DNA of 51,218 bases. It comes from Desulfobacula sp. Lineage in GTDB: Bacteria > Desulfobacterota > Desulfobacteria > Desulfobacterales > Desulfobacteraceae. Position 1 is the first letter of the stretch; the number at the start of each line of letters is the position of its first letter. Position numbers and translations under genes: made by a program. The DNA is taken from NCBI RefSeq assembly GCF_014237455.1, contig NZ_JABZFL010000048.1, forward strand, positions 1 through 51,218, in the 5' to 3' direction. Below are positions 3 through 43,561 of this stretch, in pieces. The notes below the pieces were generated by a model. It did not search any database. It saw only the letters and a list, made by a program, of their open reading frames with translations, and was not told the DNA's origin.

Positions 3-46
3 TATACTTTTCCCCCCAATAACCACAATAAGCGAAGCCTGACCCC
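3..46 (-). repeat. REP-like element, GGGGTCAGGC family (copy 1)
   Basis: Read on the minus strand this begins GGGGTCAGGCTTCGCTTATT, continues with TGTGGTTATTG and ends in a G-run followed by AAAAGTATA. It matches the copies at 4566-4609, 36176-36219 and 37507-37548 over its whole length. It lies just 3' of the WlbA-type gene. The adjacent text has a direct duplication of CCCCGTTATA. Confidence 0.85.
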
Positions 47-1845: not shown

Positions 1846-1888
1846 ATACTTTACCCCCAAACAACGACAACAAAGCAAGCCTGACCCC
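1846..1888 (-). repeat. REP-like element, TTGTTGTCGTTGTT subfamily
   Basis: Minus strand: GGGGTCAGGCTTGCTTTGTT, then GTCGTTGTTTGGGGGTAAAG and TATTAA. It has the full head and the GGGGGTAAAGTAT tail of the main family with the diverged body of the copy at 1064. Its GGGG end is separated by one base from the stop codon of the sugar transferase gene. Confidence 0.8.
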
Positions 1889-1889: not shown

Positions 1890-3875
1890 TCAATTTGACC
1901 GGGCGCCTTTGAGGGCGATGTTGATGAAGGCTTTGTAGAAGTAGGTGCACTGGGTTCTGAAGGGATGTTTCAGGAAGGCGTTTATGTATCTTTTTTCCGA
2001 AGCACAGATCTCGTCAAAGGTTTCAGGCAGGTCCGCATAAAACGGCGGAACAAGACCGGGCTTGACTTTTTTTCTCAAGTCCTGAAGATCCTTGTCATAC
2101 AGATCCAGATAATGAAAACTTAAGGGCCGGACACCCACGATGCCTAAATCCCCTTTTATCCAGTTATACAGCATGGGAAGCTCGTCCAGCCACAGTTTGC
2201 GCATGTATTTGCCCCAGGTGGTCATCCTGAAATCATTCTCGATTTTCCCGCCTTTTTGCAAGCCCTGCAGATCATAGATATATTGCTGAAGATACTCGGA
2301 ATAAGGATGCATGGTCCGGAACTTATACGTACGAATCGTCTGCCCCCCGAAACCGGATCGTTTCAGCTGCACCAGGGGACCATAGGTGGGACTTTTGTCT
2401 AAAGATGAGGTTTTCACCTTTCTTGCAATTACAACCATTCTTTGATCAATATCTTTTTCTGCAACAATTTCAAACCCGCAGAAACTCAGGCGGCCCAGAA
2501 GTTCTGCCCTGGAAATAACCCTGTTCTTTCCTTTGGTAAGGGCAAAATAAACTTTCTGCAGCCCCGGAAGTTTGGGCATGACACGACTAAAACAAAAATC
2601 TGCAAGATAAATGAAACCGGCAATATACCGGGGGAATTTTTTATATATCCATTTATAATGGGTGTTGATGGTATGGGCATACCCGATAAAATACCCGCCC
2701 GGCAGCAGCATCTGGTGCATCCTGAGAAAATAATCATTCACCCTTCTGATATCGTTGATCTTCCACAGGTTCATGAAAAGACGAGCCTGGCCCCTGTCGG
2801 GATGCAGATCAATCAGATCACAGGATCGTTCAATAACAGTTTCCATCCTCATCATATCATCAAGAACAATATGTCGGTCTATGAATTCAAAAAGTTCGGG
2901 ACTGTAAGAAGACAGCCGTCTTTTAAATTTTCCACGGGCAGGCTCCATGAGCTTCTGCCGGATGATATTAATATTAACATCCAAAGGAATTTCATGCTGC
3001 CTGAGTATTTTTTTAACCGTGTCAACAGACTCAATATCAGGCGTTGCTTTTCTGCCCCGGCTGATCCTATAATAAAAACTGATCATGACAAATTCCAGGG
3101 CCGTCAACAGCACAATGGGACCAAGCCCCTGGAACCGTGAAAAATAAAAAAGCCGCAGACCGAAAACAAGAACCGTCATGCCGGCCAGCATCAGAATTCC
3201 GGCCTTGATCCACTGCCAGGTAAAAAAATGGACATTCCGGAATCTGTCCATTGAAAATTTACGGGTCATCACAGACGTCACAACCCATAATCCAAGAAAA
3301 ATCACAAACAGTTTGGAATATTCCGGATGCAGTGCCCAATGGCCTCTTTTTAAATAATTCACCATAAAAAAAGAAAAGAAAACCAGAAACAGATCCATAA
3401 ATACCAGGGGCCAGGCAATATTGTTTTCCATCCGGACAGCCCCTGAAATACTTTTAAAATCGATCTTTTCAACTGCACCGGGATTATATATCCTGTTATA
3501 TGTGCACCAGACCAGGCAGTCCAAAACAAAAACCATTAAACAGGTAGAAAAAACATGAATCCTTGAATAAGCGGCAAACCCGAAAACAACCACCAGAAAT
3601 GTAATCGAATAGGTTAAATAAAAAAACGATCTTAAAAAAGTTAAGAGACACGTGCCATATGCAGCATAAGAAGCAGGTTTGAATTTCTTCCCCATAAGGG
3701 ATGTGACAAACCAGCACAGGTAAAATATGAAAAGCAGCCTTGCGTATGACCCGCTCAGGTCCAGCGTCCCTTTTTTAAAAAAATAACAGATAAAAAAGGA
3801 AACATTCAACAGGAAAAAATCTACGAAAAAAATCCTGCCAAAAGATATAATCCTGTTCTCTTTAACAGTTGCCAT
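1890..3875 (-). CDS. Fused polyprenyl-phosphate sugar-1-phosphate transferase with duplicated membrane module and methyltransferase-like domain
   Basis: A 661-aa protein with three parts. The N-terminal half has two similar multi-pass membrane units (each has an FFxxYFxKxG, YxxLFxIFxxxWxVTSxM, then KF pattern), suggesting an internal duplication. The middle segment resembles the C-terminal half of a SAM methyltransferase (LLPGGYFIGYAHTIN; ISRAELLGRLSFCGFEIV) but lacks an obvious SAM-binding glycine motif. The C-terminus is a bacterial sugar transferase (PF02397-like) with YKFRTM, LDELPMLYNWIKGDL and VGVRPLS. This family loads the first sugar phosphate onto undecaprenyl phosphate at the inner membrane. 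The usual N-terminal part of the transferase domain is shortened. Start at the ATG at 3875, preceded by AGAAGG; an upstream TTG is possible. Confidence 0.8.
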   Translation of the reverse strand: MATVKENRIISFGRIFFVDFFLLNVSFFICYFFKKGTLDLSGSYARLLFIFYLCWFVTSLMGKKFKPASYAAYGTCLLTFLRSFFYLTYSITFLVVVFGFAAYSRIHVFSTCLMVFVLDCLVWCTYNRIYNPGAVEKIDFKSISGAVRMENNIAWPLVFMDLFLVFFSFFMVNYLKRGHWALHPEYSKLFVIFLGLWVVTSVMTRKFSMDRFRNVHFFTWQWIKAGILMLAGMTVLVFGLRLFYFSRFQGLGPIVLLTALEFVMISFYYRISRGRKATPDIESVDTVKKILRQHEIPLDVNINIIRQKLMEPARGKFKRRLSSYSPELFEFIDRHIVLDDMMRMETVIERSCDLIDLHPDRGQARLFMNLWKINDIRRVNDYFLRMHQMLLPGGYFIGYAHTINTHYKWIYKKFPRYIAGFIYLADFCFSRVMPKLPGLQKVYFALTKGKNRVISRAELLGRLSFCGFEIVAEKDIDQRMVVIARKVKTSSLDKSPTYGPLVQLKRSGFGGQTIRTYKFRTMHPYSEYLQQYIYDLQGLQKGGKIENDFRMTTWGKYMRKLWLDELPMLYNWIKGDLGIVGVRPLSFHYLDLYDKDLQDLRKKVKPGLVPPFYADLPETFDEICASEKRYINAFLKHPFRTQCTYFYKAFINIALKGARSN

Positions 3876-3959
3876 ATTTTGACCTTCTTTTTTGATCAAA
3901 TAAAATTTTTATTGCCACAAAAACCACACCTGCCAAGTTGGCCAGGAGATCGTAAAGAT

Positions 3960-4533: not shown

Positions 4534-4565
4534 TTAACGTCTACATGGGTCCCATTGATCACCTT

Positions 4566-4609
4566 TATACTTTGCCCCCCAATAACCACAATAAGGAAAG
4601 CCTGACCCC
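4566..4609 (-). repeat. REP-like element, GGGGTCAGGC family
   Basis: Minus strand: GGGGTCAGGCTTTCCTTATT, TGTGGTTATTGGGGGGCAAA, GTATA. It is a full-length copy, near-identical to that at 37507-37548. Its GGGG end is the exact breakpoint of the DUF2235 fragment at 4610. Confidence 0.85.
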
Positions 4610-4826
4610 CTATTTACGAACAGAAACAGCTCATCCCCTTGAGAATAATTTTGAATAATATAACGGTAACCATCCATTATATTTTTATGCAGTCCTCTTC
4701 CCGTGGCACCTCCAATCATGGAATCATAGTAAGATCCCACGCCCCAGTCGTAAAAAACCTGCTGGGCAGCATTATCTGCTCCAACAGGTTTTATGGTTCC
4801 ATGTGCCGTCTGCACAGGAACCGAAT
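4610..4826 (-). pseudogene. DUF2235 (Tle1-like) gene fragment bounded by REPs
   Basis: The minus-strand translation contains QQVFYDWGVGSYYDSMIGGA and HKNIMDGYRYIIQNYSQGDE, matching residues near the start of the DUF2235 protein at 33524-34453. Upstream the motif ADGTWN is recognisable in another frame, joined directly to the later part, so there is an internal deletion with a frameshift. The fragment ends at ELFLF, just before the GxSxG nucleophile motif, where a REP begins; its 5' side runs into the left end of the RAYT element. It is non-functional. Confidence 0.75.
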
Positions 4827-4855
4827 GGGGTCAGGCTTGCCTTATTGCACTTATT
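4827..4855 (+). repeat. Left inverted end of the RAYT element
   Basis: It begins GGGGTCAGGCTTGCCTTATT and is an exact inverted match to 5818-5846. It contains the small palindrome AGGC-TT-GCCT. The transposase stop codon (TGA on the minus strand, 4831-4833) and its last codons lie inside this repeat. Confidence 0.9.
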
Positions 4856-5784
4856 TGTTTTTTGATCAGCCACATTTTCTCCTGCATCGCATTGTTCTTT
4901 GCCAGCCGGGCGCGTACCGCCTTGACCTGCCGGCACAAGGATGGAATGCCTCGGTTATAGTATGCTGCAAAATCGGACAGCCGATAATGGCAATGGTCCA
5001 TGCCAACCACGGCCGTCATCGCCCTTGCTTCAGACAGCAGCCTTGCGCGGCTCGCACTTGTCATTTCCAGCCGCGAGACCTTGTACACCCCTGCCCCGGC
5101 ATCCACCACCTGCTCAATCTCGATCTCTATCGGAATCTCTTCCCTGTTATGCATGAGCACCTTTTTGACGAAAATTGCATTTCCCAGTATCCGCCCTTCC
5201 TTGCTGCCATGGCGCAGCTGCTCCATGATTTCTTCTCCGGCATCCTTGTCCATGAAATACAAATAAGCGGCCCGGGCCCCTGACAGGGTTTTCCCGAACT
5301 GCCCGAGACTCCTGTCAATAAATAACCAGGAGGGGGCCTTCACATGCCCGGCATATGCGGCATGGCTGCTGAAAGTATAATCCGCCGGATCGCCCACGAT
5401 CCCGGCACGCACGGGATTGAGATGGATATACCGGATCAGCTCCGCCAGGTAATCATCCTTGTCCACAAGGATCGCCTTGTAACGTCCCTGGAAAAGGTGC
5501 CCGACCCGTTCATGCTTCTTGTTGATCCATTGTGTATATCTCTGGGAAAGAGTCTGCATAAGCTTTGAAAGCGGCGCTTCATTGACCTGCAATGCCATGT
5601 GGACATGGTTTTTCATCCAGCAGTACGCATGCAGCGTGAGCGAGTACTCCTCCAGTCCCTCGGCCAGGATGGATTCAAAATGCCGGTATTCCTCATCCCC
5701 ATGAAAAATATCCTGCTTTGCGTTTCCCCTGAGCATTACGTGGTAAATCGCTCCGGGGTAATGGATACGTCGCTTTCTTGGCAT
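4831..5784 (-). CDS. REP-associated tyrosine transposase (RAYT, Y1_Tnp / IS200-like)
   Basis: 317-aa single-strand DNA transposase of the HUH superfamily. It starts MPRKRRIHYPGAIYHVMLRG, the typical RAYT N-terminus. The HUH pair is H60-V-H62 (MKNHVHMAL). The tyrosine region is near residues 112-128 (YLAELIRYIHLNPVRAG), and GHLFQGRYKAILVD is also diagnostic. A C-terminal extension of about 140 aa contains a helix-turn-helix-like stretch (RLSDFAAYYNRGIPSLCRQV), as in long RAYTs. The last codons (ISAIRQA) and the TGA are made by the left inverted repeat. The start ATG lies 33 bp inside the right inverted repeat. No frameshift or missing key residue is visible, so it may be active. Confidence 0.9.
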   Translation of the reverse strand: MPRKRRIHYPGAIYHVMLRGNAKQDIFHGDEEYRHFESILAEGLEEYSLTLHAYCWMKNHVHMALQVNEAPLSKLMQTLSQRYTQWINKKHERVGHLFQGRYKAILVDKDDYLAELIRYIHLNPVRAGIVGDPADYTFSSHAAYAGHVKAPSWLFIDRSLGQFGKTLSGARAAYLYFMDKDAGEEIMEQLRHGSKEGRILGNAIFVKKVLMHNREEIPIEIEIEQVVDAGAGVYKVSRLEMTSASRARLLSEARAMTAVVGMDHCHYRLSDFAAYYNRGIPSLCRQVKAVRARLAKNNAMQEKMWLIKKQISAIRQA

Positions 5785-5817
5785 AATTATTTATATATTG
5801 TTTTTAAATGAAAGTGC

Positions 5818-5846
5818 AATAAGTGCAATAAGGCAAGCCTGACCCC
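5818..5846 (-). repeat. Right inverted end of the RAYT element
   Basis: Exact inverse of the left end. It is preceded inside the element by a partial second copy of its GTGCAATAAG motif. The outer GACCCC end is 6 bp from the stop codon of the ParE-like toxin gene. Confidence 0.9.
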
Positions 5847-5852
5847 AAACTT

Positions 5853-6537: not shown

Positions 6538-6634
6538 ACTCCGGGGTAATGGATACGTCGCTTTCTTGGCATAATTATTTACATATTGTTTTTAAATGAA
6601 AATGCAATAAGTGCAATAAGGCAAGCCTGACCCC
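6538..6634 (-). mobile_element. Truncated second RAYT copy (5' end only)
   Basis: About 97 bp are nearly identical to the right end of the intact RAYT element (5750-5846): the REP end, the leader, and the first codons (MPRKRRIHYPG) up to CTCCGGGG, where the match stops. Two differences are visible (ACATATT for ATATATT, and AAAATGC for AAAGTGC). The outer REP end abuts the stop codon of the MBL nuclease gene with no gap. The rest of the gap 6421-6537 shows nothing recognisable. Confidence 0.85.
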
Positions 6635-34541: not shown

Positions 34542-34650
34542 GGGGTCTGACCCTGGCAAGTTGTTGTTTTTAAAGTAGAATTAATTTAAAAAACCTCTTT
34601 TTTTGTTCTTAGACTGCACTTTTTGGGGTCAAAAACAGCGTTTTAAGAAT
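34542..34650 (+). repeat. Family-2 repeat, copy B
   Basis: It runs GGGGTCTGACCCTGGCAAG, TTGTTGTTTTTAAAG, a T-rich block, TTCTTAGACTGC, then TTTTGGGGTCAAAAACAGCG TTTTAAG. The TTA of its TTTTAAG end is the stop codon of the PIN toxin (34643-34645), and its other end replaces the start of the DUF2235 gene. Confidence 0.8.
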
Positions 34651-35074
34651 TGAGCTCATCATTATGCCAGTTTTCAATCTTCAACCTTAAAAACTGTTTA
34701 AAATCGTCAATGTTCCGTGTTACAAGAATCAAACCATTCACCACGGATATTGCCGCAATCTGTCCATCAACAAATGGCGGAGTTAAGCCTTTTGACGATA
34801 ATCTGGCACGTTCTCCTGCATGCCACTCTGCTGCTCTGTCGTCATAAGGAAGAATAAGCATCGTGCGTTTAACGATGTCATTAAGGAATGAAGCAATAAC
34901 TTCACGTTTACGGGACCGCGGAAGGCGCTGACAACCAAATTGAAGCTCATGCCAAACCGGAGAGGCAGTAACTATTTCATGCTGGCATCTTTCAAGCATC
35001 TTCATGACCGATTTATCAGGAACTGTTTTCACAGCCTCTGAAAGTACGTTTGTATCAATAAGATATTTCATCAT
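34643..35074 (-). CDS. PIN-domain toxin, VapC/FitB-like
   Basis: 143-aa PIN ribonuclease: LIDTNVLSEAVKTVPDKSV, Glu in VWHELQFG, VDGQIAAISVVNGL and VTRNIDDF, the complete acidic set. The start overlaps the antitoxin stop by 4 bp. The final codons (DELNS) and TAA run into the family-2 repeat. Confidence 0.9.
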   Translation of the reverse strand: MMKYLIDTNVLSEAVKTVPDKSVMKMLERCQHEIVTASPVWHELQFGCQRLPRSRKREVIASFLNDIVKRTMLILPYDDRAAEWHAGERARLSSKGLTPPFVDGQIAAISVVNGLILVTRNIDDFKQFLRLKIENWHNDELNS

Positions 35075-35352
35075 CTTAACTCAACTTCTCTTCCGGAAGA
35101 CAGGTCTCGAAGCCCGTTGAAATCCTTGTCAAAGATCTCAATCCCTTCATCCTGAGTTTTTCGTCGAAATTCTGAAAGGGCATTCCAAAAACCTGTAAAT
35201 TTACGACTGAGACGTTTATATTCTTGAATCGACAGCAATACTGCAACGGGTTTTCCTCGTCTGGTCAACTCGACATATGGCCCTTTTTCGACATAATGAA
35301 CAATGGTGGGAAGTCTGTTTTTTGCTTCAGCTATGGAAAATTGCTTTTGCAT
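35071..35352 (-). CDS. Phd/YefM-family antitoxin
   Basis: About 93-aa Phd-type antitoxin: FSIAEAKNRLPTIVHYVEKG, ELTRRGKPVAVLLSIQEYKRL. The ATG at 35352 has GGAGGT at good spacing; a GTG three codons upstream is unlikely. It overlaps the PIN toxin gene and has its own promoter with an inverted repeat just upstream. Confidence 0.88.
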   Translation of the reverse strand: MQKQFSIAEAKNRLPTIVHYVEKGPYVELTRRGKPVAVLLSIQEYKRLSRKFTGFWNALSEFRRKTQDEGIEIFDKDFNGLRDLSSGREVELR

Positions 35353-35387
35353 TATTATCACCTCCTTGATATATTATCTTTTTATCC

Positions 35388-35416
35388 ATTATAGCCATCT
35401 TTATGGCCATAATCAA
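35388..35416 (-). promoter_or_regulatory. Promoter and operator of the Phd/PIN pair
   Basis: Minus strand TTGATT (35411-35416), 17-bp spacer, TATAAT (35388-35393). The inverted repeat TATAGCCAT (35390-35398) / ATGGCCATA (35403-35411), 8 of 9 matching, spans the spacer and fits an autoregulatory operator. Confidence 0.72.
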
Positions 35417-35422
35417 GGTTTA

Positions 35423-35445
35423 TGGGGTCAAAAACTGGGTTTTAA
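35423..35445 (+). repeat. Family-2 repeat core
   Basis: The core TGGGGTCAAAAACTGGGTTT TAA is present alone, without the CTCTTAG half. It lies upstream of the Phd promoter and 45 bp from the ParE stop. Confidence 0.6.
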
Positions 35446-35490
35446 ACATCGAGGTCACCTGTTTCAGGTAGGGTCATATATGGGTCAGAA

Positions 35491-35784
35491 TCAATCAGCT
35501 CTTTCCATGTAATATGTTGGATTCCTGTGTTGATGGGCAATACATGTAATAAGAATATCTTGTTCATCAAGCACATATAGTATTAAATACGGGAATCTTT
35601 TAATATTAATTCTTCTCGTATTGGCTCCAATTTTTCTCCAAGTATCAGGAGTTTGGGAAATATAACCGACAGTATCCAGAAAGGATGTGTAAAATTGCTC
35701 GCCTAAACCTGCTAATTGGTCATTGTAATAATCAATTGCCTCATCCAATTCTTTATCAGCAGGCGGGATTAGGATTATATTCAT
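35491..35784 (-). CDS. ParE/RelE-family toxin
   Basis: 97-aa toxin: IILIPPADKELDEAIDYYND, GLGEQFYTSFLDTVGYISQT, then RINIKRFPYLILYVLDEQDI and IAHQHRNPTYY. All are typical of the ParE-like toxins paired with addiction module proteins. Start overlaps the antitoxin stop (ATGA). Confidence 0.88.
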   Translation of the reverse strand: MNIILIPPADKELDEAIDYYNDQLAGLGEQFYTSFLDTVGYISQTPDTWRKIGANTRRINIKRFPYLILYVLDEQDILITCIAHQHRNPTYYMERAD

Positions 35785-35993
35785 TTTTCGATGCTTGAAC
35801 GTAGTTGTTCAAGCGGTATCCCCTTTATACTGCCTTCTTTATAGGCTTTATATCTTTTCTCAGATTCGAGTAACCATATTTTTTCTATTTGTTCATCTGT
35901 TTTATCCAAACTGTCCAATAGAGTTTCAGCCAAATGCACTCTATCAACTGCATTTAATTTTAAAGCTCTTTTTTTTATTTCTTCTGTTATCAT
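35781..35993 (-). CDS. Addiction-module antitoxin (ParE-associated)
   Basis: 70-aa helical protein: ALKLNAVDRVHLAETLLDSL followed by a Trp-containing ExRxxAYKEG region (KRYKAYKEGSIKGIP). It matches the putative addiction module component family. An excellent promoter lies in the 52-bp duplicated segment at 36039-36090. Confidence 0.85.
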   Translation of the reverse strand: MITEEIKKRALKLNAVDRVHLAETLLDSLDKTDEQIEKIWLLESEKRYKAYKEGSIKGIPLEQLRSSIEK

Positions 35994-36038
35994 CTATTTT
36001 TTCCTCATAATGGGGGTCACAATTAAATCCTTTCGGTT

Positions 36039-36090
36039 CTTAAATTGATCTTTATTATAAATTATAAAGTTAATAAGGACAACTTTTTTA
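36039..36090 (-). promoter_or_regulatory. Promoter segment shared with the AbrB/PIN module (copy 1)
   Basis: 52 bp match 38034-38085 with about three mismatches. On the minus strand it contains TTGTCC (36077-36082), 17-bp spacer and TATAAT (36054-36059). The downstream genes of the two copies are unrelated, so the promoter itself appears duplicated. Confidence 0.75.
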
Positions 36091-36167
36091 TGGGAAAATC
36101 GTTGCAATTTGGGGTATTTTTTCCTCTTAGAGCCTGCTTTTTGGGGGCAAAAACTGCGTTTTAAGGA
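36088..36167 (+). repeat. Family-2 repeat, long form
   Basis: It reads TATGGGAAAATCGTTGCAAT, TTGGGGTATTTTTTCCTCTT, AGAGCC, TTTTTGGGGGCAAAAACTGC, GTTTTAAGG. It is closely matched by 40659-40735. Confidence 0.8.
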
Positions 36168-36175
36168 TTTTGCCT

Positions 36176-36219
36176 GGGGTCAGGCTTCGCTTATTGTGGT
36201 TGTTTGGGGGTAAAGTATT
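36176..36219 (+). repeat. REP-like element, GGGGTCAGGC family
   Basis: Plus strand: GGGGTCAGGCTTCGCTTATT, GTGGTTGTTTGGGGGTAAAG, TATT. This and the other right-hand copies point the opposite way to the left-hand copies. It lies 17 bp 3' of the HicA gene. Confidence 0.85.
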
Positions 36220-36236
36220 GAATTTGATCAAGTGTC

Positions 36237-36464
36237 TCAGGCCCTTTCCAGTAGTTTAAGATATTTCTCTCTGCTCATTTCAATCACACGCATATTATTT
36301 TTGATAACGAATATTGGTACTTCTTTATATCTGGGTATTATCACAGGTCTAACAGCGCCAGGGTATTGGTAAATCAGATGATCGCCTTTTGTTCGAACAT
36401 ACAAGCATCCAGCCATTTCAAAAATTTTGACCTGAACTTGATAATGAGTCGGTTTAATTTTCAT
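36237..36464 (-). CDS. HicA-like mRNA interferase toxin
   Basis: 75-aa double-stranded-RNA-binding-like protein with the HicA catalytic region KIFEMAGCLYVRTKGDHLIY and QYPGAVRPVIIPRYKEV. The catalytic His is in KGDH. It follows its HicB partner by 5 bp. HicA toxins cut mRNA. It looks intact. Confidence 0.78.
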   Translation of the reverse strand: MKIKPTHYQVQVKIFEMAGCLYVRTKGDHLIYQYPGAVRPVIIPRYKEVPIFVIKNNMRVIEMSREKYLKLLERA

Positions 36465-36469
36465 TAGCC

Positions 36470-36739
36470 TTAGACAGACACTTCAATAGGCGTAAATCCC
36501 ACCAACTCTTTGCGCACACTCAGTATGTCAGCATTAATTTCCTCTAATCCGCAATCTTCAATAAACCGCTCAAATGTTCCCGCCTTTTTTGTTTCTTCGA
36601 TGTTGATGAGTATAGCTTCTATGAGATTTTTCTTTGCCTGATAAACATCCTCGCCACAAGAGGCAATGTCTAATTCAGGACAATGCGAGACATACATATT
36701 ACCCTCTTTCCATATTTCTTCTGTAAGGCGAATTTTCAT
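36470..36739 (-). CDS. HicB-like antitoxin
   Basis: 89-aa HicB fold: EEIWKEGNMYVSHCPELDIA, SCGEDVYQAKKNLIEAILIN. The ATG at 36739 is chosen because GGAGG lies just upstream; a TTG upstream is weaker. A TATAAT box is visible on the minus strand at 36770-36775. It should bind HicA and repress the pair. Confidence 0.83.
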   Translation of the reverse strand: MKIRLTEEIWKEGNMYVSHCPELDIASCGEDVYQAKKNLIEAILINIEETKKAGTFERFIEDCGLEEINADILSVRKELVGFTPIEVSV

Positions 36740-36854
36740 CTTATCCTCCATCAAATTTTTATGACTATGACATTATACCCCATCATACTCTGAAGATAAA
36801 GTCTATATTCGTATGGCGGGGTCTCACCCATCTACTCTGATGGACTCTTTTTTT

Positions 36855-37053
36855 TTATGGAAAATGGCGGTAAATATCTTTACGGTGCAAAGCTTTTTCC
36901 AGAATAATAGCATCACCTTCAATTTTTAGACCAATCCTGTAAGATCCGAACCGAACCTTAAAACACAAGGGGTAACCTTTCATCTGCTCTATGACACCCA
37001 ATTGATGTATTGACTCGGCCTGGGGAAGTGCCTTAATACAAAATGTTCCATTT
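36855..37053 (-). pseudogene. RelE-family toxin remnant (C-terminal part)
   Basis: The minus-strand frame reads QLGVIEQMKGYPLCFKVRFG, SYRIGLKIEGDAII, LEKALHRKDIYRHFP, the C-terminal two thirds of a RelE toxin (compare the family's RIGDYRIG and HRKDIYR). The N-terminus is missing: a stop precedes it and no RBS or antitoxin is found. The remainder of the 36740-37243 interval holds a degenerate GGGGTCTCACCC motif, a family-2 core and nothing else recognised. Confidence 0.75.
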
Positions 37054-37171
37054 TAATCACACCCGCCCTTTGTCTTCATGTACATGTAAAACCTCTTAAT
37101 TTTTATCCTGTCTGTATTGTAATAATCTCACACCATAAAGTCAAATCAGGTTTATTATCGGGGTTATTACC

Positions 37172-37194
37172 GGGGTCAAAAACTGGGTTTTAAG
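37172..37194 (+). repeat. Family-2 repeat core
   Basis: GGGGTCAAAAACTGGGTTTT AAG, the same short core as at 35423. Confidence 0.6.
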
Positions 37195-37243
37195 AGTGTT
37201 GGATTAATGGGTGGTTTACCCAGCTCCGACCCTTTACTTACAT

Positions 37244-37447
37244 TCATTCATGGGATGAATTTCTAAACCAATCAAAAGATATTGTCAAGAGTGAAAGTTC
37301 ATTTATGGGCAAAAGCTCCCGGAGCAGGTAATGCCGGTGGAGGCTTGCGGCCTGGTAAAAGTGGTAGATATTGCTTGCAGCGGCTTTTTGGGATCGCTGT
37401 GTTTTTCCGTTCTGGAAAGACAGGATATCTTTTATGCGATCTTCCAC
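37244..37447 (-). CDS. Small hypothetical protein, probably a gene fragment
   Basis: A 67-codon frame (EDRIKDILSFQNGKTQRSQK...) that stays open upstream to about the REP at 37507 (GIDFTTVEDRIK), so the apparent start is not the true one. It is not recognised. Its position between a family-2 core and a REP suggests a truncated leftover. Confidence 0.25.
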   Translation of the reverse strand: MEDRIKDILSFQNGKTQRSQKAAASNIYHFYQAASLHRHYLLRELLPINELSLLTISFDWFRNSSHE

Positions 37448-37506
37448 TGTGGTGAAATCAATGCCGCTTGTGCCGTCGTCATGGCCTGTGGAAAGTGTAT
37501 TTGAAT

Positions 37507-37548
37507 GGGGTCAGGCTTTCCTTATTGTGGTTATTGGGGGTAAAGTAT
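37507..37548 (+). repeat. REP-like element, GGGGTCAGGC family
   Basis: A full-length copy: GGGGTCAGGCTTTCCTTATT, GTGGTTATTGGGGGTAAAGT, AT. It is 6 bp 3' of the truncated PIN gene and nearly identical to 4566-4609 in inverted orientation. Confidence 0.88.
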
Positions 37549-37554
37549 TTGTTT

Positions 37555-37809
37555 TTATGCAAATGGGTTCATTATTTTAAGACGGCTTTCAAGAAGAAAA
37601 CCATCCTGCATATCTTCAGATATTAAATATTCCGCATCACAATCCAAAGCGCTGGCTGCCACGATGCTGTCCCAGAAAAAGAAACTGTGATTAATGCGTA
37701 TCTTTGAAGCCTGTAAGAGTATGTCTTGTGACAGCTCAAATACTGTATATTTCCGGTAGAGAGACTCTATCAAATTTTGGATTTCGGCTTCTGAATTAAA
37801 ACCGTTCAT
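37555..37809 (-). pseudogene. PIN-domain toxin lacking its N-terminus
   Basis: 84 aa that match only the later part of a PIN domain: LYRKYTVFELSQDILLQASK, FFWDSIVAASALDCDAEYLI and SEDMQDGF. The first strand with the DTN/DSN Asp, normally right after the start, is absent; the frame starts MNGFNSEAEIQN. The overlap with the antitoxin (14 bp) is natural, so a deletion inside the 5' part of the gene is likely, leaving an inactive toxin. Confidence 0.7.
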
Positions 37810-38008
37810 AAATTTCTTCTCTCAAAAAAGGTGAAAAACCCTTTGATTTTATAGGATTTAACAACAGCTTATCGATTATATCGGTTTGCCTGACCTTTTG
37901 TTCACTTATTATAATGACCTTTACATTGCTGCCGGTTCTTTGCTTAAATTTTTCAGGAATTCGAATAAACCCGTTTTTGATTTTCGCTTTAAACTCAATT
38001 GCTTCCAT
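37796..38008 (-). CDS. AbrB-like / VapB-type antitoxin
   Basis: 70-aa protein: EFKAKIKNGFIRIPEKFKQR with a VKVIIISEQ strand, a swapped-hairpin AbrB-like DNA-binding domain, and a tail SPFLREEIYERF that resembles VapB antitoxins. The ATG at 38008 follows GGAGG. Its promoter lies in the duplicated segment at 38034-38085. The toxin partner is truncated. Confidence 0.75.
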   Translation of the reverse strand: MEAIEFKAKIKNGFIRIPEKFKQRTGSNVKVIIISEQKVRQTDIIDKLLLNPIKSKGFSPFLREEIYERF

Positions 38009-38033
38009 GATGTGCCTCCTCAAAAGCTTAATA

Positions 38034-38086
38034 CTTAAATTGATCTTTATTATAAGCTGTAAAGTTAATAAGGACAACTTTTTTTT
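38034..38086 (-). promoter_or_regulatory. Promoter segment shared with the ParE module (copy 2)
   Basis: Near-duplicate of 36039-36090. Minus strand TTGTCC, 17-bp spacer, TATAAT (A-T rich leader follows). It drives the AbrB-like antitoxin, a gene unrelated to the one downstream of copy 1. Confidence 0.72.
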
Positions 38087-38092
38087 AAGGAC

Positions 38093-38146
38093 GGGGTCAG
38101 GCTTCGTTAGAGCCTGCTTTTTGGGGTCAAAAACTGCGTTTTAAGG
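38093..38146 (+). repeat. Hybrid REP / family-2 repeat
   Basis: GGGGTCAGGCTTCG (REP head) runs straight into TTAGAGCCTGCTTTTTGGGG and TCAAAAACTGCGTTTTAAGG (family 2). The REP body and the first half of family 2 are missing, so this looks like a recombination joint between the two families. Confidence 0.7.
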
Positions 38147-38165
38147 GTTTTGCTGGGGGACTCTA

Positions 38166-39458
38166 CTAATGCCCCACCGGGTATTCCAACAACCATTCAT
38201 ATGCTGTTTTAACCTCAACCCATTTTGGCAGGCTATCAGAGGAGACAGTTACATCCCCGGCGATCAATATACTTCGGCTATTTTTAATTCTTTTTCCGGC
38301 TTTTTCCAATCCATTTATCTCCCGGGAAAGATTATCCTGGTGTAAAGTCTGGGTAACCTGGATAAGAACAGGTTTATCAGTTTCCGGAAAAACTACAAAA
38401 TCACATTCATAACCATTCTTTAAAAAGAAAACAGCTTCTGTTGTGCTGCGAATTCCGGTAAAAACTAGATTTTCAAGGAACTTGCCCCGGTCTTCTGAAA
38501 AAGCATACCGGATGGCAGAGGCAATTCCATTATCATAGAGATAAATTTTTTTGTTGCTCATCTCTCTTTTTACCACTGCAGGATCATACTTTTCTACATA
38601 TGTAACCATGTAAACAGAAAAAATTCTATCCATAAGCCGATAAATTGTGTCTTTACCGATCCTGATCCCCCTGGATTTCAAATCATTATAGAGTTTGTTG
38701 ATGGAAAATTCTTTTGTAAATGAGCTGATGAGACGTTTAATAAGGTATTTAAGGATTGATGCATCCCGAATCTCATATCTATCCATTAAATCCCGATAAA
38801 GCATGACATTAAAATATTCCTGCAAAATATTTGCTTTATAACGGGTTTCCATGTCAACCAGCTCTGGATACCCTCCCCAGGTAAGATATTCTTCAAAGCT
38901 GTTTTGAATTTTTGCCCGATTTTTTGTGGAATAGGTATCTTTGGAATCAATGCTCTTAAAGGATAAAAATTCTGAAAACGATAACGGCATGATTTCAAAA
39001 GAAAGGCTTCGACCCCTCAGAGAGGAGGCAATCTCCTTAGACAGCATTTTTGCATTTGAGCCCGTAAGGAAAATTTTTCTACTAATAGTATCATACAGGC
39101 GACGGACATATTTTTCCCAGTCCGGTATTTCCTGTATTTCATCAAAAAAGATATAGAGTTCATCCAATTTTTGATCCGGGTAAAGTTCAAGATAGGCATC
39201 AAGGATCTGATCATAACCAGTATCCAGGTCAAGACGTTCATCTTCAAAATTAAGATATAATATCTGTTCTCTTTTTATATCAAGCTTTTCCAGGCTTGCC
39301 ATGAGTTGAAAAAGATACCATGTTTTTCCGGCCCTGCGCGGACCAATGATGGTGATAATCTTGTCCAGATCAAGGGGAACGACCAAATGCCGGGGTTTAA
39401 ACGGGGGCAGCGATTTTAAATGAAAATCTTTTATAATTGTTTTTAAAATTTGTTTCAT
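38166..39458 (-). CDS. AAA ATPase with DUF4143 domain
   Basis: 430-aa AAA_14/DUF4143 protein. Walker A is GPRRAGKTWYLFQ, Walker B is ELYIFFDEIQEIPDW, a sensor segment is IFLTGSNAKML, and the C-terminal part has FLENLVFTGIRSTTEAVFF and CDFVVFPETDKPVLIQVT, resembling the nuclease-like DUF4143. Such genes are common in mobile and TA-rich regions; their function is unproven. No partner is evident, and it sits between two TA modules as a single-gene cassette. Confidence 0.88.
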   Translation of the reverse strand: MKQILKTIIKDFHLKSLPPFKPRHLVVPLDLDKIITIIGPRRAGKTWYLFQLMASLEKLDIKREQILYLNFEDERLDLDTGYDQILDAYLELYPDQKLDELYIFFDEIQEIPDWEKYVRRLYDTISRKIFLTGSNAKMLSKEIASSLRGRSLSFEIMPLSFSEFLSFKSIDSKDTYSTKNRAKIQNSFEEYLTWGGYPELVDMETRYKANILQEYFNVMLYRDLMDRYEIRDASILKYLIKRLISSFTKEFSINKLYNDLKSRGIRIGKDTIYRLMDRIFSVYMVTYVEKYDPAVVKREMSNKKIYLYDNGIASAIRYAFSEDRGKFLENLVFTGIRSTTEAVFFLKNGYECDFVVFPETDKPVLIQVTQTLHQDNLSREINGLEKAGKRIKNSRSILIAGDVTVSSDSLPKWVEVKTAYEWLLEYPVGH

Positions 39459-39560
39459 ATGGTTATTTTCCTTAGTTTAAGGAAAATGTCAATGATTATT
39501 TATTCTTTTTTAAGGAAAAAATTGGGTTTTTAAAGGTTGTTTCCAGAATTCGCTTGACGT

Positions 39561-39859
39561 CTAATTTATAAGTTCGAATAATTTGAATTTTGATGCTTTC
39601 TTATCAACCGTAAGAACAGACTCGCAACCATTTATTTTTGCCGACTGTGCAATCAACAGGTCAGAAAGATCATATTTATTCCCTTGTGCGGAATGAACCA
39701 ACTGCTGCACTGCTGAATGCTGACCAAATTTAAAGATGGGCATCAATAAAAGCTCACTTATGGATTCTAAAATTACAAGCAGTGGCACAAATAGCGTTTT
39801 TTTCTCTGATTCAACGTTTTTAAAAATCGAATTAAAATATTTGTATCTATAGCTTTCAT
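39561..39859 (-). pseudogene. PIN-domain toxin with frameshift
   Basis: The gene starts MKAIDTNILIRFLK at 39859 with an ATGA overlap with the AbrB stop, then must shift frame within a run of T/A (ATTTTTAAAAACG) to read NVESEKKTLFVPLLVILESI and later KYDLSDLLIAQSAKINGCES. The catalytic Asp and the later acidic residues are thus in different frames. The middle of the domain is also short. It is probably inactive. Confidence 0.75.
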
Positions 39860-40194
39860 TTGAATTTATTTTTCATTCGATTTCTGATTGCATCGTCCAT
39901 AGTTTCTATAGATACAACTTTTCTTCCTGGTTTATGTAATTTGCGAAAAAGGTCATCTACTTTTTTAGAGACCGGCCTGATTATGGCTTCTCTTTTTTTT
40001 TCTGTAACAATGATTTCAATTTTGTCGCCAAAGTTTATTTTAAGAGAATCCCTTATTGCTTTAGGAATTGTTGTCTTTCTACCGTCTGGATGAACAAACC
40101 GAATATGGGAGCCTTGCTGTCTTATTCGCTGAAAACCTAATTTTTGAACCTTTTGGATAAAATTTTTAAAGGTTATGGCTGGATATGATGTCAT
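39856..40194 (-). CDS. HicA-AbrB chimeric protein
   Basis: 112 aa. Residues 1-42 are a HicA toxin (PAITFKNFIQKVQKLGFQRI, RQQGSHIRFVHPDGRKT, with catalytic His), and from TTIPKAIRDSLKINFGDKIE onward the protein is an AbrB/MazE-type antitoxin with VapB-like tail. The joint falls at TTIP, a motif present in both families (HicA TTVP and AbrB TIPK). Upstream is a HicB gene with ATGA overlap, downstream a PIN gene with ATGA overlap. HicA's later helices are missing. It seems to be a recombinational fusion of two TA operons. Confidence 0.8.
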   Translation of the reverse strand: MTSYPAITFKNFIQKVQKLGFQRIRQQGSHIRFVHPDGRKTTIPKAIRDSLKINFGDKIEIIVTEKKREAIIRPVSKKVDDLFRKLHKPGRKVVSIETMDDAIRNRMKNKFK

Positions 40195-40454
40195 ACTGCA
40201 ATTTCTATATCTCTAACACCGACAAATTGATTATAATCATCAACAATCGTATCTTCCATACAGGAACCAATGGCTTCAGTAATATTGCCAATGGCTTCAT
40301 CAATGGTAGAGCCATAACTATGACATCCTTTAAAAACCGGACAAGTTACAATAAACTCACCATCAACGTCCTGTTCAATAATTATGGGAAAATGTTTTCT
40401 TTTCATAATCACCCCGTTTTCTGATATATTAGTTGTATATTCGGCTGCTTTCAT
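40191..40454 (-). CDS. HicB-like antitoxin
   Basis: HicB fold: FPIIIEQDVDGEFIVTCPVF, GCHSYGSTIDEAIGNITEAI. The ATG at 40406 (preceded by GGGGTGAT) and the ATG at 40454 (preceded by AGGGAG) are both possible; family length favours the shorter form. It overlaps the HicA-AbrB gene by 4 bp. Confidence 0.8.
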   Translation of the reverse strand: MKAAEYTTNISENGVIMKRKHFPIIIEQDVDGEFIVTCPVFKGCHSYGSTIDEAIGNITEAIGSCMEDTIVDDYNQFVGVRDIEIAV

Positions 40455-40566
40455 ACGTTATTGCTCCCTGTTTGATTCTATCTATAGCAGTGTTAACATA
40501 TAAAATCATCTTGACACCAACAGTGTACCCATAAACTTAAATTTCTGCAAATCCTTTTTGGATAGT

Positions 40567-40735
40567 GGGGTCTGACCGATAAGTTTGGCTGGGGCAGGCA
40601 GCATTTGTATGTGATTTCAATATCCAATATCGGGTCTGACCCTGGTAGTGGTTGTTATTATGGGAAAATTGTTGCAATTTGGGGTATTTTTTCCTCTTAG
40701 CGCCGGGTTTTGGGGGTCAAAAACATCTCTTTAAG
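40567..40735 (+). repeat. Family-2 repeat, copy H, with two GGGGTCTGACC motifs
   Basis: GGGGTCTGACCGATAAG at 40567 and GGGTCTGACCCTGGTAG at 40632 precede TATGGGAAAATTGTTGCAAT, TTGGGGTATTTTTTCCTCTT, AGCGCC and GGGGGTCAAAAACATCTCTT TAAG. The long part (40659-40735) matches 36088-36167. It ends a few bases before the PIN stop codon. The rest of the 40455-40743 gap holds nothing recognised. Confidence 0.78.
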
Positions 40736-40743
40736 AAGTTGGC

Positions 40744-41241
40744 TTATATGATTTCAGATATACTTCTGACCGGCGAATAGAATCCTTGTTTAATCATTCT
40801 GTCAAGAACCATATCAGCCTGATTTAAAGGTATTGTTCCATCTATCACACCAGCCTTTAATATACCGATGGTTCCTGTAAACTGTACATTGTAATGTTGG
40901 CATTGCTGTCTTGCTGAACGATCATCCGTTACAACGATTCCCTTCAATACTTCTGCTGCAGCAATGCATGACGCTTCACCTTTACCCAGATGAATAATCA
41001 GATTGGAATAAAATTGTCTGGCCTGACCGGGTAAAGGAATGAGCATGAACGTTTTATTACTGAGTAATGTTTCGATATTGCACAATGCCGGGTATTTAAC
41101 AGATCCAGTGCATATTTCATCATATACCTGCCATGTAATAAAAGCGCATTTTTGATATCTTATTTTTAAAAGAGTATCCGACTCGGATAATAAAAAATTA
41201 CTGAGGGAAACAGTATCAAAATACCAGCCTTTTTCAGGCAT
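40744..41241 (-). CDS. PIN-like toxin (DUF3368 type)
   Basis: 165-aa PIN-fold protein: WYFDTVSLSNFLL (first Asp), VYDEICTGSV, HLGKGEASCIAAAEVL and GIVVTDDRSARQQC, followed by GILKAGVIDGTIPLNQADMV. This is the DUF3368 pattern. The start overlaps the partner gene's stop by 8 bp. Confidence 0.8.
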   Translation of the reverse strand: MPEKGWYFDTVSLSNFLLSESDTLLKIRYQKCAFITWQVYDEICTGSVKYPALCNIETLLSNKTFMLIPLPGQARQFYSNLIIHLGKGEASCIAAAEVLKGIVVTDDRSARQQCQHYNVQFTGTIGILKAGVIDGTIPLNQADMVLDRMIKQGFYSPVRSISEII

Positions 41242-41545
41242 TTTTTATGTCACTTTCCTGAAAGGAATTGTTTTGTAAAATATTGTGTTCTTCAAGCCAG
41301 ATCCGTATATCCAATACATTCATTCCCATTTCTTCCGCCAGCTTTCCAAGGCTGATATAACCACCTTGGAATGCTGCAATCGCCTGCTTTTGTATTTGAT
41401 TGAGACCAAGAAGCTCAAGCTGATAACATGAAAAAACAGCTTGTCTTATAAGCTCTCCAACAGAAGTTTCTCTTTTCTTTGATAATAGTTTCAGGCCTTT
41501 GGCGATTTCCGGCTTTACTTTAATATGTAAGGTAGCATTTTGCAT
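41234..41545 (-). CDS. RHH / UPF0175-like antitoxin
   Basis: 103-aa protein: N-terminal ribbon-helix-helix (TLHIKVKPEIAKGLKLLSKK, SVGELIRQAVF) and a C-terminal helix-turn-helix-like UPF0175 segment (AIAAFQGGYISLGKLAEEMG). It is the antitoxin/regulator of the DUF3368 toxin. AGAGG precedes the ATG, and a perfect-consensus promoter lies upstream. Confidence 0.82.
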   Translation of the reverse strand: MQNATLHIKVKPEIAKGLKLLSKKRETSVGELIRQAVFSCYQLELLGLNQIQKQAIAAFQGGYISLGKLAEEMGMNVLDIRIWLEEHNILQNNSFQESDIKNA

Positions 41546-41584
41546 TTTATACCTCTTTTGTTATATATGGCCAAATTCAGGTAT

Positions 41585-41613
41585 ATTATAAATTTTTATA
41601 CAGTGTTTGTCAA
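41585..41613 (-). promoter_or_regulatory. Consensus sigma70 promoter of the RHH/PIN pair
   Basis: Minus strand TTGACA (41608-41613), 17-bp spacer, TATAAT (41585-41590): an exact match to both consensus hexamers. Confidence 0.85.
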
Positions 41614-41648
41614 ATAAAAATTGGGGTAAAAATTGGGGTCAGATTTTT

Positions 41649-41679
41649 GGGGTCAGGCTTTCCTTATTGTGGTTATTGG
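41649..41679 (+). repeat. REP-like element, GGGGTCAGGC family
   Basis: GGGGTCAGGCTTTCCTTATT then GTGGTTATTGG, without the GTAAAGTAT tail. A partial duplicate head (GGGGTCAG) lies 12 bp to the left. It lies 17 bp 3' of the RelE gene. Confidence 0.85.
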
Positions 41680-41695
41680 TTTTTTTCAGGCGGTT

Positions 41696-41950
41696 CTAAG
41701 AATATACTTTTTTTCTGTGAGCAATCCGGATAATGGTGATTAATAACAACTTTCCTTCTTTAAGATAGATAATCCGAAAGTTTCCTGCTCTTTTGCGAAA
41801 TTTACCTTTGTGCCTGCCTTTTAGCGGTTTGTCCTTGTGAAACTGTCCTTTTTGCAGCGTGATTATTTTTTTTGCAACCAGGGCTCTATCTTTATCCTGC
41901 AAGGCCAAAAATTCTTTTTCTGCTTCAGGTTCAAATCCAATTTTATACAT
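41696..41950 (-). CDS. RelE/ParE-family toxin
   Basis: 84-aa RelE-like toxin: YKIGFEPEAEKEFLALQDKD, PLKGRHKGKFRKRAGNFRII, IIRIAHRKKVYS with the terminal Arg/Lys/Tyr set expected for a ribosome-dependent RNase. The ATG at 41950 overlaps the antitoxin stop (ATGTATAA). Confidence 0.88.
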   Translation of the reverse strand: MYKIGFEPEAEKEFLALQDKDRALVAKKIITLQKGQFHKDKPLKGRHKGKFRKRAGNFRIIYLKEGKLLLITIIRIAHRKKVYS

Positions 41951-42173
41951 CAATGCCTGCTCTGGCAAAGACTAACTCAAGGGGGATAACTTCGGTCTCA
42001 CCTTTTTTCAAGGCATCAATTCTTTTGTCAGCCACCATTTCATCCAGTTTATCAAAATAAAGGTCTATTGCTTGTTCAATCAGACTTGTCCTTGTCTTTT
42101 CCAGTTCCCTGGCATAGGTGTCCAGAGAATTCAACATCTCTTTTTCGAGTCTTATATTGATTGCCGGTTTCAT
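41943..42173 (-). CDS. Ribbon-helix-helix antitoxin
   Basis: 76 aa: PAINIRLEKEMLNSLDTYAR followed by KTRTSLIEQAIDLYFDKLDE, a CopG-type DNA-binding domain, with a toxin-binding tail. The ATG at 42173 follows AAGGAAGG; an upstream start would add 13 residues. It overlaps the toxin gene by 8 bp. Confidence 0.85.
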   Translation of the reverse strand: MKPAINIRLEKEMLNSLDTYARELEKTRTSLIEQAIDLYFDKLDEMVADKRIDALKKGETEVIPLELVFARAGIDV

Positions 42174-42211
42174 CTGCCTTCCTTTGAAAATTTTCTTTAC
42201 CTGTGTTGACA

Positions 42212-42240
42212 AATGTAGTGCAGAATCTTCTTTTTGTCAA
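42212..42240 (-). promoter_or_regulatory. Promoter of the RHH/RelE pair
   Basis: Minus strand TTGACA (42235-42240), 17-bp spacer, TACATT (42212-42217). Confidence 0.75.
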
Positions 42241-42259
42241 GATAAAGATCGGGGGTCTT

Positions 42260-42868
42260 TTAAGACTGAACGTCTGCATTGATCAACTCATGTTTCAGTA
42301 AAAATCTAATCACCTCATCCACACTTTGCTGTAAATCAAGTTTATCTGTCTCAATAACAAGAGAAGAATTTTCCGGTTCTTCATATGGGGCTGAGATGCC
42401 CGTCATATTGGTGATTTTACCTTTGGCAGCTTTTTTATAAAGGCCTTTTGGGTCACGTTTTGCACATTCATCAATACTGCATTTGACATAGATTTCATAA
42501 TAAGGCCAGTTGGTCATTAATTCACGTGCATATTCCCGGCTTTGTTTATACGGGGCAATAAAAGCGGCAAAGACAAGCAGGCCGGCATCCACCATAATTT
42601 TTGCTACTTCGGCAATACGGCGGATATTCTCTTGTCTGTCTTCAGGAGTTAAACCCAGGTCCTTGTTCAGGCCGGTTCTTATATTGTCTCCGTCAAGCAC
42701 ATAGCTGCGCACACAAAGGCTGTGCAGCTTTTCTTCAACTGCATGGGCCAGAGTCGATTTGCCGCTTCCTGACAGGCCTGTAAACCATAGCAGACCACCG
42801 GAGTGGCCATTCAGCAGGTGTCGATCATTGGTGGAAACTGATGATGGGGATGGGAATATGTTGTTCAT
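42260..42868 (-). CDS. cysC: Adenylylsulfate (APS) kinase
   Basis: 202-aa CysC: P-loop FTGLSGSGKSTLAHAVEEKL, DGDNIRTGLNKDLG and PYKQSREYAREL, DPKGLYKKAAKGKI. It phosphorylates APS to PAPS. Dissimilatory sulfate reducers do not need PAPS for respiration, so this copy may serve sulfation of a glycan or sulfur assimilation. It is isolated inside the TA island with no sulfotransferase or cysN/D visible. Confidence 0.93.
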   Translation of the reverse strand: MNNIFPSPSSVSTNDRHLLNGHSGGLLWFTGLSGSGKSTLAHAVEEKLHSLCVRSYVLDGDNIRTGLNKDLGLTPEDRQENIRRIAEVAKIMVDAGLLVFAAFIAPYKQSREYARELMTNWPYYEIYVKCSIDECAKRDPKGLYKKAAKGKITNMTGISAPYEEPENSSLVIETDKLDLQQSVDEVIRFLLKHELINADVQS

Positions 42869-42939
42869 TTTTTTGCCTTATATTTTAGCCTTGTATTTGC
42901 GCGGATTTATACGGATTTTTATTGCCATGGTCAAGAATG

Positions 42940-43224
42940 TCAAATTCGTTTTAAAGCAGCTTGATATATCTGTTTATCTCTTCTTGGACTTACAGCAAGA
43001 ATAAAGACAAGGATTCGTTTATTGAAAACCTGATAAACCACCCTGTAATCACCAATTCTGAGTTTTCGAAAGTTTTTAAGGTTATGAGATAATGGTGCGC
43101 CAAACTTTTCAGGCGCTCTGGTGAGCTTCTCATTAATTATCAGCATGATTCTTCTTGCGGCTGCAGGCCCTATGCTTTGCATATCATCATCAACATCTTT
43201 ATGATAAATAATTTCCCAGGTCAT
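42940..43224 (-). CDS. RelE-family toxin
   Basis: 94-aa RelE-like toxin: WEIIYHKDVDDDMQSIGPAA, FRKLRIGDYRVVYQVFNKRI, ILAVSPRRDKQIYQ. The RIGDYRVVY core is diagnostic. It starts with ATG overlapping the antitoxin stop by 4 bp. The 71-bp gap to the cysC start contains only A/T-rich sequence. Confidence 0.9.
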   Translation of the reverse strand: MTWEIIYHKDVDDDMQSIGPAAARRIMLIINEKLTRAPEKFGAPLSHNLKNFRKLRIGDYRVVYQVFNKRILVFILAVSPRRDKQIYQAALKRI

Positions 43225-43490
43225 TTTGCATATTTATCCATCATTTCTCTATGGGAAATGGTTTCTCCGGGATCAAAATTTTGAATCCTGGAAAGAGCAA
43301 GAGATGTCAGGCGAAGGTCTTCAATCTCTTCTTCCATTGCTTCATATGCGTTAAATGACATAAGTATTGCCTTTGGAGAATTGTTTTTTAAAATAATCAG
43401 TTTGTCATTTTCTCCGGTTTCCAGAGTATTGAGTGTTGCAGCAGTCTTTTTTGCAAGCTGCGTAGAAGATAAATAATTTTTTATTTGCAT
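43221..43490 (-). CDS. Phd/YefM-family antitoxin
   Basis: 89 aa: YLSSTQLAKKTAATLNTLET, KLIILKNNSPKAILMSFNAY (Phd pattern), then an acidic tail. The ATG at 43490 has AGAGGT at workable spacing; an ATG two codons upstream is too close to it. A promoter lies at 43524-43552. Confidence 0.87.
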   Translation of the reverse strand: MQIKNYLSSTQLAKKTAATLNTLETGENDKLIILKNNSPKAILMSFNAYEAMEEEIEDLRLTSLALSRIQNFDPGETISHREMMDKYAK

Positions 43491-43552: not shown

Positions 43553-43561
43553 TAGGGATTG

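Follow-up and report, generated by a model that had tools for sequence, protein, structure and literature searches.

As far as their text goes, Di Nocera et al. (2013; PMC3733652) have named TIRYT transposases and TIRtrons, and have described terminal inverted repeats (TIRs) of GGGGWSAS type as well as dispersed TIR families. Quentin et al. (2018; PMC6006769) have placed 20 of 26 published TIRYTs in TnpAREP subclass 2.1, the tails of which carry Bac_DnaA_C or another helix-turn-helix domain. Their main text also remarks that the head consensus is unlike DnaA boxes; by their account, the tail may therefore play no part in recognising the target, or its specificity may have evolved towards another. 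The same text gives subterminal hairpins as the ends of IS200/IS605 elements. The text of a 2021 paper (PMC8266576) reports that TnpAREP cuts at CT, or at CT and CA, beside REPs.

The element described here lies in a stretch of 51,218 nucleotides (the window), which is contig C93 of a 3.48-Mb draft genome of 113 contigs. It belongs to a known type, the TIRtrons, and its TIRYT transposase probably falls within TnpAREP subclass 2.1. Conserved HUH and tyrosine residues, long TIRs with a GGGGWSAS-type motif (which GGGGTCAG fits) and a C-terminal helix-turn-helix of Bac_DnaA_C type were all found. A preliminary description of the window had proposed an undescribed system; that claim falls, since the type is already in print in the text of PMC3733652 and PMC6006769.

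The element and its transposase

Positions 4826–5847 of the window hold an intact one-gene element, with a single ORF inside perfect 30-bp inverted repeats. The arms enclose 962 nt, and the TGA stop codon of the ORF is supplied by the TCA of the TIR at 4826–4855. The preliminary description gave perfect repeats of 29 bp, which are the same arms minus the outer T/A, and its view of an intact single-gene element with a Y1/RAYT-like transposase, and with ends that characterise a dispersed family of repeats, is borne out by the arms, the ORF and the copies listed further below. The features of the element are as follows.

4826–4855, plus strand: terminal inverted repeat on the 3' side of the gene, 30 nt, with the head GGGGTCAGGC from 4827 and the body TTGCC-TTATTG-CAC-TTATT
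5818–5847, minus strand: terminal inverted repeat on the 5' side of the gene, 30 nt, 100% complementary to the arm 4826–4855
4831–5784, minus strand: gene of the TIRYT-type Y1/HUH transposase, 317 aa (Pfam, NCBIfam, AlphaFold2 and the match to PDB 4er8)
5422–5751, minus strand: Y1_Tnp catalytic domain, aa 12–121, with H60 and H62 (HUH) and Y119 invariant in 50 aligned sequences
4837–5118, minus strand: C-terminal DnaA-domain-IV-like helix-turn-helix domain, about aa 223–316 (DnaA model, AlphaFold2, and 1j1v and 3pvp)

Y1_Tnp (E 4.3e-17) is the sole Pfam match of the protein, and the NCBIfam model REP_Tyr_transpos scores 77.2 bits, just under its cut-off of 80. By its position, Y119 is presumably the catalytic tyrosine. 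The NCBIfam DnaA model matches aa 210–313 (E 2.3e-5), and Pfam Bac_DnaA_C gave no match at E 0.001. An AlphaFold2 model built from the alignment of 50 sequences has a pLDDT of 92.5 and a pTM of 0.69, a value that leaves it uncertain how the domains are placed relative to each other. Foldseek searches with the predicted structure gave 4er8, TnpAREP bound to REP, as the top match (E 9.4e-7), with the transposases of IS608 and ISDra2 also among the matches. The tail matched 1j1v, a structure of DnaA domain IV bound to its box (E 1.1e-3, rmsd 1.6, TM 0.87 when normalised by target), and a second DnaA domain IV, 3pvp (E 3.3e-4). The predicted structure thus agrees with TnpAREP plus DnaA domain IV. 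In a close clade of 11 proteins, nearly all invariant columns are within the first 193 residues. The best-matching titled loci, among the best 80 of 357 with own-genome records possibly left out, are from Desulfobacula, Desulfocicer and Deltaproteobacteria. Beside the element, a 93-aa frame (4534–4815) matches part of a T6SS Tle1-like phospholipase domain and looks like a remnant.

Gene-less copies in the window, the genome and relatives

The head GGGGTCAGGC occurs exactly 14 times in the 51-kb window, against 0.05 expected and a maximum of 1 in 100 shuffles. The preliminary count of at least 14 same-headed copies is therefore confirmed, with two corrections. The occurrence at 45396 was rejected as a true end, as it has an unrelated body, lies within ORF 44543–45796 (an O-antigen ligase-like gene in the family scan) and resembles a chance match; that at 38093 is degenerate. 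The bodies, earlier called varied, are not freely so, and read by eye as TTATTG-nnn-TTATTG or near it, where nnn is CAC in the element and its relic and TGG or TCG in the other copies. Single ends are the predominant form within the window.

6539–6634, minus strand: 96-bp relic of a second copy of the element (5' end of the gene with its TIR), 97.9% identical
17–46, minus strand: single end, TGG subfamily, at the contig end
1064–1093, minus strand: single end, TCG subfamily, with the damaged head GGAGTCAGGC, additional to the 14
1859–1888, minus strand: single end, TCG subfamily, 1 bp past the stop codon of ORF 1890–3899
4580–4609, minus strand: single end, TGG subfamily
36176–36205, plus strand: single end, TGG subfamily
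37507–37536, plus strand: single end, TGG subfamily
38093–38122, plus strand: degenerate end with head and few bases, most of the body lost
41649–41678, plus strand: single end, TGG subfamily
43562–43591, plus strand: single end, TGG subfamily
44353–44382, plus strand: single end, TGG subfamily
51170–51218, plus strand: palindromic pair, TGG subfamily, cut by the contig end

In places the repeats abut genes, for example 0–1 bp past the stop codons at 6635 and 1890. No Rfam family matched within the window at gathering scores. A further extension, GGGGGnAAAGTAT, is common to five single ends (46, 1888, 4609, 36176 and 37507). Its exact copies in the genome number three, all on the window contig, with one place at 1 mismatch on C64; at up to 2 mismatches the pattern has 21 places in the genome against 13 in the control.

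A search of the draft genome with the 21-bp end GGGGTCAGGCTTNCCTTATTG at up to 3 mismatches gave 48 places, 24 per strand, and 0 with the reversed-pattern control. A second intact element (C89:5610–6633) has its own matching ends of TGG type; its DNA is 75% and its protein 71% identical to that of the window element. A third homologue, on C33, is 40% identical over aa 1–139, and no head-bearing TIR was found for it. In 17 stretches outside the window contig, the ends are often close inverted pairs of 45–64 bp, both arms of which carry identical or nearly identical subfamily letters; a few ends stand singly there, and two widely spaced pairs have ORFs between their arms. Contigs C53, C89 and C93 each terminate inside a pair. 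Contig breaks inside repeats are often caused by the repeats. Three palindromic pairs were folded as single strands, and each formed the complete hairpin, at -35.5, -35.5 and -24.8 kcal/mol, where shuffles gave about -5 (z -14, -17 and -11). Two pairs on two contigs, L077:1058–1117 and L079:95–154, belong to different subfamilies (TGG and TCG); in both, the outer GGGG is gone from one side, which is joined to adjoining sequence common to the two.

Copy numbers were compared in 58 genomes of the family, the own genome included and most of them drafts, with a line for transposase homologues at 200 bits that was chosen after the hits were known. The eight genomes with a homologue above that line hold 37–315 copies each. 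Among the 50 genomes without one, 15 hold 8–219 copies and 35 hold 0–7. The preliminary description had asked whether copy number tracks the transposase, and it does (Mann-Whitney p 2.7e-5); the repeats are not equally common in genomes lacking it, an outcome that had been named as speaking against the link. Still, they persist in the 15 genomes just mentioned, which have no close transposase.

Three orthologous sites in the genus carry pairs in the reference and in some relatives and not in others. The pair at site 1 is present in L241 and L243, that at site 2 in L241, and that at site 3 in L251, L253 and L255, with a collapsed form in L252. No target duplication or clean empty site was seen at these three sites; the pair-less versions are diverged other sequence, of similar length in some relatives. 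The gene-less paired ends are hence MITE- or REPIN-like, being dispersed and present or absent at orthologous sites. Most own-genome copies, read by eye, have T or C immediately before the head. In the non-redundant set of homologues described below, that base is T in 59, A in 54, C in 26 and G in 22, which gives no general rule for an insertion base.

The preliminary description placed the element in an island of polysaccharide (EPS) and toxin-antitoxin (TA) genes, and both kinds are present. Seven of the 10 larger window ORFs scanned match sugar, glycosyltransferase, capsule or polysaccharide families (Bac_transf, DUF354/glycosyltransferase 28, group 1 glycosyltransferase, PGA_cap, Polysacc_synt and Wzy_C and, more loosely, GFO/IDH/MocA), and the window has about nine TA-type modules. 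About eight TA-type pairs or singles are clustered beside polysaccharide genes at 34643–44331, including PIN/Phd, ParE, HicA/HicB-like, RHH and MazF and one pair without a family match. An APS kinase gene (42260–42868) lies among these modules. One 112-aa frame (39856–40194) matches both HicA toxin and MazE antitoxin domains and is possibly a fusion or neighbouring remnants.

That the repeats form a cassette system, a kind of gene-capture platform in which they would border TA and regulator genes and make them mobile, is highly improbable. In its favour, repeats or the element are within about 120 bp of 6 of the about nine TA-type modules, as counted by eye without a chance control; one of the six, at 37555–38077, has no Pfam or NCBIfam match. 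Inverted ends also enclose a MarR_EPS regulator (L064:2173–2747; TIGR04176, 126.8 bits, cut-off 88) and a small ORF without an NCBIfam match (L063:8329–9001). However, the MazF module is 79–88% conserved in L232, L233 and L234, and those loci are without a repeat at up to 3 mismatches. In L231, where the module is 94% conserved, one side has its nearest good copy at a distance of about 830 bp, and on the other side the contig stops after about 180 bp. The MarR_EPS region and both its flanks align in L221 and L222 (85–87%), so that no movement is shown. Joint movement of repeats and TA genes is accordingly not supported for the one module traced, MazF. Both ends around the MarR_EPS region are recognisable in L221 and one in L222.

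Architecture of the ends

Homologues were searched in 97 genomes, the own one and 96 relatives, from which 60 listed matches picked by rank and open frame were fetched, and a further 80 contig loci were taken as the best 80 of 357. The resulting 139 homologous frames were reduced to 127 by removal of 7 duplicates and 5 short frames. An automatic search without chance control found a head-bearing TIR for 95 of the 127 frames and none for 32, which is not a count of true absences since some, such as L101, have TIRs with heads outside the search pattern. Four of the 95 (L158, L175, L189 and L200) were removed by hand as mis-anchored, and a non-redundant set of 81 ends at less than 80% protein identity was obtained. 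Heads were of TCA type in 47, of ACG type in 29 and of other types in 5. Head positions 2, 4 and 6 are invariant in 81/81, which is partly forced by anchoring on the head pattern.

The ends of these 81 relatives have a common layout, with the head at positions 1–10 and two direct 7-bp boxes at 11–17 and 19–25. Within the interior, matches at lag 8 reach 0.474 against 0.293 in dinucleotide shuffles (z 13.3, 0/1000), and lag 9 gives z 3.0 (2/1000); the highest value among lags 4–7 and 10–13 is that of lag 7 (z 2.0). Lag 8 is present behind TCA heads (z 8.9; lag 9, z 3.4) and behind ACG heads (z 8.8; lag 9, z -0.1). When only 23 distinct interiors less than 60% alike were kept to limit shared descent, lag 8 gave z 5.2 and lag 9 z 3.6, and the right arms in the same test gave z 5.6 and z 4.0. 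Control DNA outside the ends gave z 0.1 for lag 8 and z 0.0 for lag 9, with lag 7 at 2.7 there; a control 40–60 bp inside the ends gave z 2.0, which is not zero, and z 1.0, respectively. The best lag is 8 in 40/81 ends and 9 in 14/81. The box boundaries are sharp: positions 11–17 match 19–25 at 0.48–0.72, and the values directly flanking this block are 0.19 (before) and 0.32 (after).

Near the window element, box spacing is mostly 9 (TTATTG cac TTATTG). Among lags 7–10, the window element, L063, L145 and L086 match best at 9, and L083, L084 and L087 at 8. Four loci from gammaproteobacterial records (L166, L167, L185 and L191; two of them titled Woeseiaceae and two Gammaproteobacteria) have a different head, GGTGCCGG, and direct boxes stand behind it with a period of 8 in L167 and 9 in L191. 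By eye, the DnaA box TT[AT]TNCACA is not in the ends, the own-genome interiors of which read TTATTGCAC, TTATTGTGG and TTATTGTCG. A two-box interior across TIRtron ends looks new. It is not reported in the literature searched, which was the running text of mostly open-access journal papers. No direct or tandem repeat of this kind was found in the main text of PMC6006769 or in the searched text of PMC3733652, where mentions of tandem arrangements have other subjects.

Recognition of the ends and comparison with known systems

The relation of each domain to each part of the end was assessed in the 81 ends by partial rank (Mantel-type) correlations with 2000 permutations. Given the tail, the head follows Y1 (0.557 overall, 0/2000); given Y1, its correlation with the tail is 0.052 (115/2000). 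In the TCA class the head-to-Y1 value is 0.418 (0/2000) and the head-to-tail value 0.153 (45/2000). In the ACG class the link to Y1 vanishes (-0.036, 1370/2000) and head-to-tail is 0.002 (907/2000). Given Y1, the interior follows the tail at 0.101 overall (2/2000) and 0.252 in the ACG class (0/2000), and the value in the TCA class, which includes the window element, is 0.048 (390/2000). Given the tail, the interior follows Y1 at 0.185 overall (0/2000), 0.351 in the TCA class (0/2000) and 0.063 in the ACG class (347/2000). With the helix-turn-helix alone, the coupling of the interior is 0.117 overall (0/2000), 0.107 for TCA (13/2000), 0.158 for ACG (7/2000) and 0.127 for TCAGGC only (100/2000). 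The linker control gives 0.110 (17/2000), 0.116 (62/2000), 0.153 (48/2000) and 0.090 (411/2000), respectively. Covariation of box and tail was rejected as proof of recognition, because the linker control is nearly as strong as the helix-turn-helix. The box-to-tail coupling is weak and not specific; it is compatible with recognition of the boxes by the tail.

We consider it somewhat probable that the ends of this TIRtron, and in trans their gene-less copies, are the substrates of its TIRYT transposase, with the tail reading the boxes and Y1 reading the head. The model builds on the observed anatomy, the predicted domain folds, the dispersal of the copies, their presence or absence at orthologous sites and the box architecture. 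Anchoring would come from the tail, which would bind both direct boxes of the interior (8 or 9 bp apart), probably in double-stranded form. Next, the Y1 domain would recognise the conserved head, GGGG[T/A]C[A/G], in single-stranded form, and its tyrosine would cut beside the head and pass the strand on, as others have shown for TnpAREP on REPs. The 45–64-bp palindromic pairs and the single ends would be the gene-less targets mobilised in trans, and changes in the interior would give rise to subfamilies (CAC, TGG and TCG) with a common head. The assignment of the domains to the parts they read has poor support in the sequences compared; the two boxes are a candidate target of the DnaA-like tail. 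Against the model, the boxes differ from DnaA boxes, a distance of 8 bp is tight for two domains side by side, and there is the persistence of copies in genomes without a close transposase. Extended to the whole family, the model becomes a two-part address, in which the HUH domain reads an invariant head and a captured module of a replication initiator (DnaA domain IV) reads a tandem of two 7-bp boxes as duplex; specificity would shift through boxes and tail while the cutting site is kept. We put this extension forward tentatively, as possible and somewhat doubtful.

An ordinary TIRtron would need no reading of boxes by the tail: Y1 alone would recognise head and interior, and the DnaA-like tail would serve another purpose, for example at replication forks, to which Quentin et al. 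(2018) in their text suggest that it brings the protein. This is rather unlikely. Across the full set, and also within the TCA class, interior distance does correlate better with Y1 than with the tail, and the linker control about equals the helix-turn-helix. On the other hand, the ACG-class interior follows the tail and not Y1, and a sharply bounded direct box pair that differs between elements would suit a duplex-binding helix-turn-helix. A RAYT-REP system in the strict sense, which would act on REP hairpins and is how the preliminary description interpreted the locus, is very unlikely, even though a Y1 domain is present, the top structural match is TnpAREP and the palindromic pairs fold as strong hairpins. 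The element is defined by terminal inverted repeats and its transposase has a DnaA-like tail; reading of the 30-bp end found no GTAG tag, and folding of two single ends (z 1.1 and -0.2) gave no hairpin, which rules out a REP hairpin in the single end and makes recognition of a hairpin in one end unlikely. The ends are TIRs and not REPs. No evidence was found for the domestication of the transposase that the preliminary description had also considered.

The TIRtron reading with two-part recognition concerns an element that is itself ordinary for its kind. Its end architecture turns the remark left open in the literature, on the target of the DnaA-like tail, into a direct binding question, and the head-box-box signature can serve for finding such elements and for pairing them with gene-less repeats in other genomes.

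Compared with IS200/IS605, the element would share the single-strand chemistry of HUH Y1 enzymes, has IS608 and ISDra2 transposases among its structural matches, and differs in having long perfect TIRs in place of subterminal hairpins. With TnpAREP groups 2 and 3, as given in the text of PMC8266576, it shares the HUH Y1 enzyme and, in 4er8, its best structural match; those enzymes recognise single-strand GTAG plus a stem-loop, and neither GTAG nor a single-end hairpin is present here. It is like TnpAREP subclass 2.1 in the text of PMC6006769 in its Y1 domain, its Bac_DnaA_C-like or other helix-turn-helix tail and its flanking GGGG[AT][CG]A[CG] repeats; that paper leaves the target of the tail open, whereas the interior boxes are offered here as a candidate. 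It is also like the TIRtrons and TIRYTs in the text of PMC3733652, which have one Y1 transposase gene between GGGGWSAS TIRs that are dispersed as single, dimeric or grouped repeats. From that description, taken as its searched text apart from the TIR sequence figure, the present element differs in its two-box interior.
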